Shown here piece after piece: positions 22,296 to 39,663 of a stretch of 41,817 bases of DNA. Position 1 is the first letter of the stretch. Each line of letters starts with the position of its first letter. A program made the translations under genes and the position numbers. The notes under the pieces are model-generated. The model was not told where the DNA came from, did not search any database, and was given only the letters and a program-made list of their open reading frames with translations. This DNA is from Lachnospiraceae bacterium (GTDB taxonomy: Bacteria; Bacillota; Clostridia; Lachnospirales; Lachnospiraceae): positions 1-41,817 of the forward strand of contig JAIKXN010000133.1 in NCBI GenBank assembly GCA_024684055.1, given 5' to 3'.

Positions 22296-22369
22296 GGCGA
22301 GATGGCTCAACTGGCTAGAGCATCCGGTTCATACCCGGAAGGTTGAGGGTTCGAGTCCCCCTCTCGCTA
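22296..22369 (+). tRNA. tRNA-Met (anticodon CAT), elongator type
   Basis: Cloverleaf: acceptor GGCGAGA with TCTCGCT (terminal G-U, as in other Firmicute elongator tRNA-Met genes), D-arm GCTC...GAGC, and anticodon stem TCCGG/CCGGA with loop TTCATAC (anticodon CAT). The T-arm is GAGGG-TTCGAGT-CCCCC with one A-C mismatch. CCA is not encoded. The anticodon alone cannot exclude tRNA-Ile2 (lysidine), but the body resembles elongator Met. It has its own promoter and terminator. Confidence 0.93.
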
Positions 22370-36448: not shown

Positions 36449-37792
36449 ATGAAATATTTCGGAACAGACGGTTTCAGAGGAAGAGTAAATGAAACTCTGA
36501 CAGTCGATCATGCAATTAAAATCGGTAAATTTCTTGGTTATTATTTTTCAAACACACTCGGTAATGTAAGATGTGTAATCGGTAAAGATACAAGAAAATC
36601 CGGATACATGTATGAATACGGTCTTGTTGCGGGACTTACTTCGACAGGTGTTGATGTTTCACTTCTTCATGTTACAACAACTCCTTCAATTTCTTACATT
36701 ACAAGAACAGAGAAATTTGATTTCGGTATCATGATTACCGCAAGCCATAACCCTTATTATGACAACGGTATCAAGGTTATCGACAGAGACGGTTTCAAGA
36801 TGAGCGACAAGATTCTTGAACTCGTTGAGGAATATATTGACGGTAAGGTTGAAATCGAACTTGCAAAGAACGAAAAGATCGGACGTGCTTCCGATTATAT
36901 CCAGGGACGTAACAAGTATATTTCATATCTTGCTCAGATTCCCACACATTCATTCAGAGGATACAAAGTCGGCCTTGACTGTGCAAACGGTGCATCTTTC
37001 ATGATTGCAAAGAATGTATTCGATATGCTCGGTGCTGAAACATTTGTTATCAATAACCAGCCTGACGGTCTTAATATTAACAGAGACTGCGGTTCGACTC
37101 ATATCGAATCACTTCAGAAACTCGTAAAAGAAAAAGGTCTTGATATCGGATTCGCATTCGACGGTGACTCCGACAGATGTCTTGCTGTTGACGAGAACGG
37201 TGAAATCGTTGACGGTGATATGATCATCTATATTTACGGATGTTACCTCAAAGAAAGAACTCAGCTTGTAAAAGATACAGTAGTTACAACGGTAATGTCC
37301 AATATCGGACTTACAAAGGCTCTTAATGCCAAAGGCATTAAGAATGTTCAGACACCCGTAGGTGACAAATATGTTTCTGCGGAAATCCAGGCAGAAGGAT
37401 ATTCGGTAGGCGGTGAGCAGTCCGGTCATGTTATCTTTAACAAGTATGCTACAACAGGAGACGGTATCCTTACAGCAATCAAGGTTCTTGAAATCTGTAT
37501 CGAGAAGAAGTGCACATTATCTTCACTTGTTTCCGATGTTACAATTTTCCCTCAGCTCCTTATCAACGTAAGAGTTGAGAAGATGGAAGAAGTCCTTGAA
37601 AGACCCGAACTCAAGGAAACTACTGACGGAATCCTCGCCAAACTCGGCGATACGGGAAGAATCGTTCTTCGTAAATCAGGAACGGAACCTCTTGTAAGAA
37701 TTATGGTTGAAGCTCAGACAGACGAAGAGTGCGAGAAGTATTGCAACGAAATCAAAGACAAAGTTCTTGAGTTGTCCGATATGTTAAAGTAA
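36449..37792 (+). CDS. glmM: Phosphoglucosamine mutase
   Basis: 447 aa. It converts glucosamine-6-phosphate to glucosamine-1-phosphate for UDP-GlcNAc and peptidoglycan. The start MKYFGTDGFRG is typical. S99 in TASHNPYYDNG is the phosphoserine, DGDSDRC binds Mg, and GEQSGH and RKSGTEPLVRIM are the sugar- and phosphate-binding blocks. TACGGAGGATATTTT is the ribosome site. The 202-nt gap upstream (36247-36448) is AT-rich except for a short GC-richer stretch (36391-36420) that can fold weakly. A small GTATT/AATAC hairpin (36424-36436) sits beside the Shine-Dalgarno. No clear promoter. Confidence 0.95.
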   Translation: MKYFGTDGFRGRVNETLTVDHAIKIGKFLGYYFSNTLGNVRCVIGKDTRKSGYMYEYGLVAGLTSTGVDVSLLHVTTTPSISYITRTEKFDFGIMITASHNPYYDNGIKVIDRDGFKMSDKILELVEEYIDGKVEIELAKNEKIGRASDYIQGRNKYISYLAQIPTHSFRGYKVGLDCANGASFMIAKNVFDMLGAETFVINNQPDGLNINRDCGSTHIESLQKLVKEKGLDIGFAFDGDSDRCLAVDENGEIVDGDMIIYIYGCYLKERTQLVKDTVVTTVMSNIGLTKALNAKGIKNVQTPVGDKYVSAEIQAEGYSVGGEQSGHVIFNKYATTGDGILTAIKVLEICIEKKCTLSSLVSDVTIFPQLLINVRVEKMEEVLERPELKETTDGILAKLGDTGRIVLRKSGTEPLVRIMVEAQTDEECEKYCNEIKDKVLELSDMLK

Positions 37793-37799
37793 TGAAATA

Positions 37800-37915
37800 G
37801 GGGGACGGGGTTTCTAATTCAAAAAGAAAATGAATGACCTTAGTTGGTTCTCCGATTCAAAAAAACACAGTGTGCGGGTTCCCCGATTAATAAAGAAAAT
37901 GAATTCAGGAGATGT
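37800..37915 (+). repeat. GGGGACGGGGTTT-headed degenerate tandem repeats after glmM
   Basis: GGGGACGGGGTTT (37801-37813) lies 8 nt after the glmM stop. Three diverged units of about 33-36 nt follow, each with a GGTTCTCCGATT-like core and usually AAAGAAAATGAAT. The 13-mer and the placement match the block after folBK; the unit sequences differ. The repeats lie between glmM and its terminator and contain no credible gene. Confidence 0.7.
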
Positions 37916-37933
37916 GTTTCCGGATACAAAATC

Positions 37934-37961
37934 AAAAGTCTCGGTCAGCCGGGACTTTTTT
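37934..37961 (+). terminator. Terminator of glmM
   Basis: AAAAGTCTCGG (37934-37944) pairs with CCGGGACTTTT (37949-37959), one wobble, 4-nt loop, ending in TTTTTT. Confidence 0.9.
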
Positions 37962-38073
37962 AACAAAAAATAAAATTAAAGCATATTAGACTTGAATAAT
38001 TACATGTATTTGTGGTTTAATTGATATGCGGTTTTTAACGCAAAATAAATATTTCCAAAAGGAGGAAACGGAT

Positions 38074-38160
38074 ATGGACTATCGAAGTAGCAATACCGAC
38101 GCGGGCGCAGACCGAACGTGTGGAAGCGAAGACATTTTCGTTTCCTTTTACATGTTATAA
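38074..38160 (+). CDS. Putative 28-aa leader peptide upstream of mgtE
   Basis: AAAAGGAGGAAACGGAT gives a near-perfect Shine-Dalgarno 8 nt before the ATG, and the frame runs 28 codons to TAA. The peptide begins MDYRSSNTDAGAD and ends DIFVSFYML, with five Asp/Glu in all, followed by a hydrophobic end. Its DNA is much richer in G+C than the surrounding leader, which suggests selection on RNA structure as well as on the peptide. It lies 123 nt before mgtE. The last third overlaps a terminator-like hairpin. I know no family for it. It could instead be part of an untranslated structured RNA. Confidence 0.5.
   Translation: MDYRSSNTDAGADRTCGSEDIFVSFYML
38122..38149 (+). promoter_or_regulatory. Attenuator-like hairpin in the mgtE leader
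   Basis: GGAAGCGAA (38122-38130) pairs with TTCGTTTCC (38137-38145), one wobble, loop GACATT, followed by TTTT: an intrinsic-terminator shape inside the leader ORF. The 3' arm CGTTTCCT (38139-38146) is also perfectly complementary to AGGAAACG (38063-38070), which overlaps the leader ORF's Shine-Dalgarno. Two exclusive structures are therefore possible. The M-box (ykoK) consensus is not recognisable. No confident promoter seen between 37962 and 38057. Confidence 0.5.
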
Positions 38161-38283
38161 ATAGAACAAATCTGCATTTATTTTTTCTTGTGTAAAAACA
38201 GGTTTTGTTTTATTCGGGAGTCTGACCTGCATCGGTTACTCATCAATAAGCATTTATATGCTTTAGTTTAAGGAGGAAGACCG

Positions 38284-39663
38284 ATGGCAGAAACAAAAGA
38301 TGTATCAATCATTGTAAGCACACTGCTTACACTTCTTGAAGAGAAAAAATATCCAACAATCAAAGAAATACTGGTGACGATGAATCCCGCTGATATAGCT
38401 GCTGCATTCGAAGAGATGGATGAGAGCAGGCTTCCTGTTTTGTTTCGTCTGATACCCAAGGAAGCGGCTGCAGAAACATTCGTTGAAATGGAATCCGATC
38501 TGCAGGAACTTCTTATCAGAGGTTTTTCGGACAGTGAACTTAAGGAAGTGCTCGATGAACTATATGTCGATGACGCGGTAGATATCGTCGAGGAAATGCC
38601 TGCAAATGTTGTAAAGCGTATTCTTGCACAGGCTGATCCGGAGATGAGAAAGGATATCAATGAAATCCTCAGATATCCCGAGAATTCCGCCGGCTCGGTT
38701 ATGACGACAGAATATATAACACTTCGTCCCGATATGACTGTAAAGGAAGCAATACTTCGTATCAGACGTACCGGATTCGATAAGGAAACCATATATACCT
38801 GTTACGTAACATCATACAGCAAACTGATTGGTTTCCTGACTGTAAAAGACCTTTTGCTTGAGCAGGATGAAGACACACTGATTAAAGAAATCATGGATCA
38901 GAATGTTATCTTTGCCAATACGCATGATGACCGGGAAGAAGTTGTACAGATGCTTTCAAAATATAACTTCATAGCGCTTCCCGTTGTTGACTCGGAATTG
39001 AGACTGGTCGGTATCGTAACATTCGACGACGCCATGGATGTCATGGAAGAAGAGGCTACCGAGGATATCGAAATCATGGCAGGTATGACACCCAGTGACA
39101 AGACTTATCTTAAGTCTAATGTTCTGGATCTGTTCAGACACCGTATACCATGGCTTTTGCTTTTGATGGTATCGGCTACTTTTACGGGTATCATCATGAC
39201 GAAGTTTGAAAATGCACTTGCCGCGCAGGTTGTTCTTGCGGCATTCATTCCGATGCTGATGGATACGGGCGGTAACTCCGGTTCGCAGTCGTCAGTTACG
39301 ATTATCCGTGCTTTGTCACTCGGTGAACTTGAATTCGGAAATCTTATCGGTGTTATCTGGAAAGAATTAAGAACAGCGGTCCTTTGCGGTACAGCACTTG
39401 CTACTGCCTGTTTTGTAAAGATCATGCTCGTTGACAGACTGATAATGCATAATCCGAATGTAACACTGCTTGTTGCACTTACTGTCTGCCTTACAATGAT
39501 TCTTACCGTAATGGTCGCAAAGGTTATCGGATGTACGCTTCCCATGGTAGCGAAGAAACTCGGATTTGACCCCGCAGTAATGGCTTCGCCTTTCATTACA
39601 ACCATGGTCGATGCGATTTCGCTTCTGGTTTATTTCGGAATGGCAAATGCATTGCTTTTCTAA
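38284..39663 (+). CDS. mgtE: MgtE-type magnesium channel/transporter
   Basis: 459 aa, usual length. The cytosolic MgtE N domain (about 20-130: MNPADIAAAFEEM, DDAVDIVEEMP) is followed by two CBS domains (about 135-260, starting SAGSVMTTEYITL), then five membrane helices from about 288. The pore signature PMLMDTGGNSGSQSSV and the last-helix Asp in DPAVMASPFITTMVDAISL are present. In characterised MgtE, Mg2+ bound between the N and CBS domains closes the pore. AAGGAGGAAGACCG precedes the ATG, and an AAGCAT/ATGCTT hairpin (38248-38263) stands just before it. Expression may be controlled by the leader element described separately. Confidence 0.95.
   Translation: MAETKDVSIIVSTLLTLLEEKKYPTIKEILVTMNPADIAAAFEEMDESRLPVLFRLIPKEAAAETFVEMESDLQELLIRGFSDSELKEVLDELYVDDAVDIVEEMPANVVKRILAQADPEMRKDINEILRYPENSAGSVMTTEYITLRPDMTVKEAILRIRRTGFDKETIYTCYVTSYSKLIGFLTVKDLLLEQDEDTLIKEIMDQNVIFANTHDDREEVVQMLSKYNFIALPVVDSELRLVGIVTFDDAMDVMEEEATEDIEIMAGMTPSDKTYLKSNVLDLFRHRIPWLLLLMVSATFTGIIMTKFENALAAQVVLAAFIPMLMDTGGNSGSQSSVTIIRALSLGELEFGNLIGVIWKELRTAVLCGTALATACFVKIMLVDRLIMHNPNVTLLVALTVCLTMILTVMVAKVIGCTLPMVAKKLGFDPAVMASPFITTMVDAISLLVYFGMANALLF

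Follow-up and report, generated by a model that had tools for sequence, protein, structure and literature searches.

What controls mgtE in this Lachnospiraceae bacterium is the question raised by the region upstream of the gene. Within the window, the whole stretch of 41,817 nucleotides that we analyzed, mgtE occupies 38284..39663 on the forward strand and encodes a magnesium transporter of 459 amino acids (TIGR00400, E value 2.3e-132; Pfam MgtE, MgtE_N, and CBS). Transporters of the MgtE type are regulated by the M-box (ykoK leader) riboswitch, RF00380, which is a direct Mg2+ aptamer. No M-box was found at the gathering score in the window, nor at E values up to 5 in the interval 37790-38300, nor in the 31 genomes of our genus sample, and the leader is thus, as the preliminary description of this locus had it, unlike the known M-box. 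The leader of the window matched no Rfam family at the gathering score, and the 13 matches obtained in 37790-38300 at E values up to 5 all lay far under their gathering scores.

The region harbors a short open reading frame (ORF), MDYRSSNTDAGADRTCGSEDIFVSFYML, of 28 codons plus a stop codon (38074..38160, forward strand), led by a perfect Shine-Dalgarno (SD) sequence, AGGAGG, read from the sequence at 38060-38065; both were present as originally described. Upstream of it, the sequence and the alignments point to a probable promoter (TTGAAT, 18 nucleotides, then TTTAAT after TGG; 37992..38021, forward strand), and the transcript would probably start near 38028. The promoter box TGTGGTTTAAT, or a close variant of it, recurs in most leaders of the genus in the alignments, although loci L045 and L047 lack it at this distance. 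The probable promoter of the window was absent from the output of the consensus promoter scan.

We then asked how consistently this leader accompanies mgtE. From the 31 genus genomes, we took the mgtE copies that were at least 90% identical to that of the window and had an assembled 5' end, which gave 17 copies spread over 16 genomes; G012 and G030, which hold only mgtE fragments without the 5' end, were left out of the 17. The leader precedes 16 of the 17 copies, which bears out its proposed association with mgtE. A profile of the leader peptide gave 16 strong matches in 16 of the 31 genomes (E values from 8e-20 to 5.7e-13), lying 147 to 249 nucleotides upstream of mgtE in all 16 loci, so that the peptide does recur before mgtE in other Lachnospiraceae. 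No strong profile match was found in the 13 genus genomes without an mgtE orthologue, and two matches with E values of about 0.04 (G006 and G016), which covered the profile only in part, were treated as chance. The single copy without a leader in the 420 bases upstream of it (L007, on contig C43 of G026) is a second mgtE copy, which shares 92% identity with that of the window and lies in a bin of 81% completeness and 4% contamination; the other copy in G026 has the leader.

A wider search gave the same distribution. In a scan of one genome per species (84,980 species, contigs of at least 3,000 bases), a degenerate pattern for the start of the peptide hit 15 loci, all in Lachnospiraceae, each of which can be matched to one of the 15 other leader-bearing genomes of the genus. 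A stricter 30-base pattern, with up to three mismatches, matched the genome of the window alone in a 397-genome sample of the family. Two weak profile matches outside the genus (L050 and L051) were rejected, since they cover residues 8 to 19 only and L050 seems to fall within a coding sequence. Searches of Pfam and NCBIfam with the leader peptide, at E values up to 1, gave no match. One leader-bearing record, Lachnospiraceae bacterium G41 (L065), carries no MAG label, and it offers a testable case if a living strain exists. Lack of conservation before other mgtE genes and a match to a known Rfam riboswitch had been named beforehand as speaking against the proposal; both were looked for, and we found conservation and no such match. 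This conservation is the main support for the reality of the leader element.

The pattern of variation supports the view that the ORF is a conserved coding sequence, and we infer its translation from this conservation. The spacing between the conserved core and the 3' arm of the ORF is 13, 16, 19, or 22 nucleotides in the 16 loci, and because these four spacings share one remainder modulo three, the frame is kept in all 16. Within codons 1 to 15, nonsynonymous changes account for 218 of the 463 pairwise codon differences counted in the frame of the ORF (a share of 0.47), compared to 458 of 498 (0.92) and 459 of 525 (0.87) in the other two frames, and codon 7 varies only among codons for Asn, Ser, and Thr. 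All 16 peptides keep a Val-Ser pair near the C terminus. The acidic residues common to most of them stand singly, at positions 2, 9, and 13, the window having Asp at all three, and none of the 16 peptides contains a proline or an acid-proline run. These peptides thus lack the acid-proline signature of MgtL.

Coding does not appear to be the only constraint on this sequence. Among the residue-invariant columns of codons 1 to 15 that have at least four synonyms, four of six are also codon invariant (CGA, AGT, ACC, and CGA), while only 2 of 71 such columns are codon invariant over codons 1 to 164 of mgtE from the same 16 loci (Fisher P = 1.6e-4). In the parts of mgtE compared, 22 of the 280 codons for Arg are CGA, and 14 of the 338 for Ser are AGT. 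Judged by these codon comparisons, the leader is under RNA constraint in addition to coding constraint. Folding was also more stable than expected, with z scores of -2.9 for the 116-nucleotide element and -3.9 for the 321-nucleotide leader. Coding and RNA pairing would constrain the same ca. 90 bases.

The strongest candidate pairing links the two ends of the ORF. Strand A (38060..38076), which comprises the leader SD and start codon, is complementary to strand A' (38133..38149), close to the 3' end of the ORF, and the predicted helix of 13 plus 3 bp joins 38060-38072 with 38137-38149 and 38074-38076 with 38133-38135. The 8-bp pairing noted earlier between 38063-38070 and 38139-38146, said to exclude a hairpin in the 3' end of the ORF, is exact and forms part of this longer helix. 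In the window, none of 200 downstream shuffles matched the real pairing with the SD region, and in five leaders of the genus, 0 to 4 of 200 shuffles were as good. In all 16 species of the genus, the predicted energy of A:A' lies between -11.2 and -20.3 kcal/mol. The hairpin was likewise present as described, at 38122..38149 on the forward strand (stem 38122-38131 with 38136-38145, -12.1 kcal/mol, followed by TTTT), and it rivals A for A', so that the two predicted folds are mutually exclusive. For the 116-nucleotide piece, the minimum-energy fold contains the A:A' helix and the centroid contains the hairpin; for the 321-nucleotide leader, the minimum-energy fold contains the hairpin and not A:A'. 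With A' masked, the leader SD became more accessible by at least 0.2 in 9 of 16 species, but in the window the value shifted only from 0.53 to 0.55.

To determine how far this architecture extends, we examined 116 regions upstream of mgtE across the family (L067 to L182), which were the best of the matches listed (37 first loci, plus 79 taken from the list from the best downwards) and left out at least G116 and G230. We defined class I as an SD-led ORF of 15 to 45 codons that starts with Met-Asp and ends before mgtE. By this rule, 14 of the 116 listed regions carry a class I leader, one each in 14 genera other than that of the window, this wider class having been found only through regions upstream of mgtE. 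When both strands of the 37 loci were scanned (314,632 strand-bases), 14 class I-type ORFs were found, and 13 of them were the mgtE leaders. Two loci among the nearest relatives, L067 and L068, have a CGAAGTAGC box in common with the genus of the window.

In the 14 class I leaders, the SD region finds its best partner in the second half of the ORF and in most cases at the ORF end. Compared with 200 shuffles, the A:A' pairing was better than at least 190 in 10 of the 14 leaders; the remaining four (L071, L072, L073, and L076) did not beat their shuffles. We also performed a swap test on 17 leaders, the 14 and three of the genus, in which the own A' ranked 3.8 of 17 on average, a value reached by none of 200,000 random draws. 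The P values of this test assume independent leaders, which the three genus members are not. On these comparisons, the predicted A:A' pairing is well supported across genera.

Two further predicted pairings connect the ORF to mgtE. Strand B, ACCGACGC, corresponds to codons 8 to 10 of the leader ORF (38095..38102) and is complementary, with one C-A mismatch in the window, to strand B', GCATCGGT (38229..38236). Strand B' is also complementary to the mgtE start region, strand C (38270..38287), which comprises the mgtE SD and start codon, so that B' can pair with B or with C in mutually exclusive predicted pairings. In the 16 species, 118 of 128 B:B' cells are paired, as opposed to 17 to 41 of 128 when the strands are slid by 1 or 2 bases. 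All eight positions pair in 6 species, and one mismatch occurs in the other 10, the window included; in L043, both partners of one pair have changed. In each of the 16 species, a local B':C fold of -11.8 to -18.6 kcal/mol covers either the mgtE SD or its start, and it occurs in two main registers, against ACCGATG and against GGAAAGACC.

Shuffling the partner strands was less decisive. Across 30 leaders (the 14 of other genera and the 16 of the genus), no more than 10 of 200 shuffles were as good as the real pairing in only 12 leaders for B:B' and in only 7 for B':C; for the window, the counts were 33 and 24 of 200, respectively. In the swap test, with the same proviso that the three genus members are not independent, P was 4e-5 for B:B' and 0.006 for B':C. 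Taken together, these data moderately support the predicted B:B' pairing and weakly support B':C.

We then carried out ensemble folding with ribosome masks, in which the switch was not reproduced in full-length RNA. In these nested ensembles, the mgtE SD stayed largely paired, with a mean unpaired value of 0.18 to 0.37, masking of B or A' was nearly without effect on it, and only two of the 16 full-length RNAs had a probability of B:B' above 0.5. In nascent RNA ending soon after B' and before the mgtE start, this probability exceeded 0.5 in 13 of 16 species; in L043, the unmasked value was 0.00 even there. Formation of A:A' together with B:B' amounts to a pseudoknot, which is beyond scoring by the folding programs used.

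The reading that we favor, although we rate it at slightly less than an even chance, is a leader-ORF switch that sets mgtE translation, with Mg2+ likely sensed through the progress of ribosomes; we infer both the signal and the direction of the response. The pairings of codons 8 to 10 and of the mgtE start point to control of translation. At adequate Mg2+, ribosomes would complete the leader and hold A' open, so that the leader SD stays usable, and B would be covered by ribosomes again and again, leaving B' to close the mgtE start and keep mgtE off. At low Mg2+, ribosomes would fail or drop off early, A' would then shut the leader SD and latch it, and the bare B would pair with B' during RNA synthesis, leaving the mgtE start open. 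Leader translation and mgtE expression would thus be inversely related. Because the full-length ensembles do not reproduce the switch, it would need to act during transcription, and this is the weakest step of the proposed mechanism.

The nascent RNAs also bear on a stall-type attenuator, an unlikely alternative that nevertheless has several points in its favor. Here, low Mg2+ would arrest the ribosome near the end of the leader, around Val-Ser, where it covers A' and leaves B free, so that B:B' forms and mgtE is on. The Val-Ser pair kept in all 16 peptides would fit such an arrest, as would the conserved N-terminal residues, which would occupy the exit tunnel, and with A' masked, the probability of B:B' exceeded 0.5 in 13 of 16 nascent RNAs. 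However, the count was likewise 13 of 16 without the mask, so that covering A' adds nothing there, and no common C-terminal motif is evident in the leaders of the other genera. Moreover, the Val-Ser codons are part of strand A', and pairing could account for why they are conserved.

The switch favored above could also answer to a signal other than Mg2+, such as a different metal, a rare tRNA, or translation stress in general, an explanation that overlaps with ours in all but the signal and that we regard as rather improbable. The two frozen CGA codons could indeed answer to a rare tRNA. Against this, the regulated gene is mgtE, and three related leaders have an M-box aptamer upstream of them: an M-box and a class I leader both precede mgtE in L072, L076, and L184, the last being a second species of the genus of L072. 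The gene and these M-boxes together make Mg2+ the likely signal. An M-box without a class I leader precedes mgtE in L075, L098, and L099, and none was found in the 681-base regions of L104 to L182, which are perhaps too short to include one further upstream. In L072 (928-1282) and L184 (3052-3406), two species of one genus, we observed the order M-box, Clostridiales-1 RNA (RF01699), class I leader, and mgtE.

Alternatively, the leader might be a riboswitch with an incidental ORF, in which the folded RNA, a junction closed by A:A' with small hairpins, binds Mg2+ or another metal directly. This we hold to be quite improbable. The RNAalifold consensus does show a junction closed by A:A', and it includes a possible small hairpin in codons 2 to 6, CUAU-CGAA-GUAG (38079..38090, forward strand), with two compatible synonymous changes, neither of them two-sided; the frozen synonymous sites would also be in keeping with such an RNA. 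However, an incidental ORF would not account for the conservation of frame and residues, none of the 23 RNAalifold pairs of the leader alone has changes on both sides, and no common junction core is evident by eye in the leaders of the other genera.

The preliminary description had proposed that two alternative folds control mgtE, and the alternative pairings that involve the SD stand, while the choice between hairpin and SD pairing as a transcription attenuator is less supported. Such an attenuator, with the hairpin at 38122-38149 as intrinsic terminator and A:A' as antiterminator, is the least credible reading. In its favor, the terminator scan found 1 terminator against 0.3 (standard deviation, 0.6) in shuffles, the hairpin energy lies between -4.3 and -12.1 kcal/mol in all but one of the 16 species, and a run of six T's shortly follows the stem in L033 and L035. 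Against it, the hairpin energy is -0.3 kcal/mol in L038, which retains the SD pairing, only four T's follow the hairpin in the window, where it is strongest (-12.1 kcal/mol), and this reading gives no account of the strand over the mgtE start.

Ribosome-based sensing of Mg2+ is documented in enteric bacteria, and the leader looks like a sequence-unrelated counterpart of the enteric Mg2+-responsive leader peptides. Translation attenuators of the ermC/cat type, which depend on drug-induced stalling, offer a second parallel, the position of the ribosome on the leader ORF freeing or hiding the SD of the next gene; in the mgtE leader, the ORF is additionally complementary to its own SD. According to published work on Escherichia coli and Salmonella, mgtA or corA expression is low when mgtL or corL is translated efficiently, and the inefficient translation of mgtL at low Mg2+ is due to its acidic or proline residues (PMC11552253, PMC11282234). 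The mgtE leader resembles mgtL-mgtA and corL-corA in that a short ORF with alternative folds precedes a Mg2+ transporter gene, and in the inverse relation between leader and transporter, which for the mgtE leader is a prediction. It differs in transporter family and phylum, in lacking from all 16 peptides the acid-proline stretch found there, in its predicted output, the mgtE start being hidden where the enteric systems use Rho-dependent termination, and in the complementarity of the ORF end to its own SD.

Two other RNAs invite comparison. The published summary on pe20 of Mycobacterium tuberculosis describes an Mbox with a conserved upstream ORF (uORF) that the Mbox controls (PMC12810186). 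The mgtE leader is likewise Mg2+-related and has a conserved small ORF, and it is predicted to share the control of translation described for pe20, but the Mbox governs the uORF there, whereas no M-box was found in the genus of the window. The mgtE motif SRC-65-1, a riboswitch candidate described from Thioalkalivibrio only (PMC11109978), is by its published description likewise a structured RNA upstream of mgtE with the SD in its model. We found no title or abstract in the open-licence literature on a leader peptide before mgtE in Lachnospiraceae. If the proposed mechanism is true, it would be a separate and apparently unrelated system, serving another transporter in another phylum, and the strategy would have arisen repeatedly.

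The 116 listed regions also contain two other types of leader ORF. Class II ORFs, which typically follow the SD AAAGGTGGTGG and encode peptides containing D(N/V)P(L/V)PGR-like stretches that recall MgtL, were assigned by rule in 31 regions (L085, L092 to L095, L104, L106 to L108, L113, L114, L116, L128, L135, L143, and L151, among others). The rule itself demanded that an acidic residue precede a proline and that the ORF end close to the mgtE start or beyond it, and because of this, neither trait is independent evidence. Class III, in which AAAGGA(A/T)GTGAACAC is followed by ORFs like MEGRSRKMEADAHPEPEAI...YVYCRS, was assigned by rule in 5 regions (L141, L167 to L169, and L181), with L165 and L166 added by eye. 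It is conceivable, though doubtful, that in Lachnospiraceae several leader-peptide sensors of independent origin have taken the place of the M-box before mgtE or have been added to it. The class found in the window would be self-latching, the end of the ORF covering its own start so that one incomplete round locks the leader off and the transporter on, and the two other classes would be of the acid-proline type, like MgtL.

Finally, we made two observations outside the leader itself. An inverted repeat followed by T's, absent from the terminator scan output, was read by eye at 37934-37961, after a gene ending at 37792, and is possibly the terminator of that gene. In addition, Rfam identified a tRNA gene at 22296-22369 of the window.
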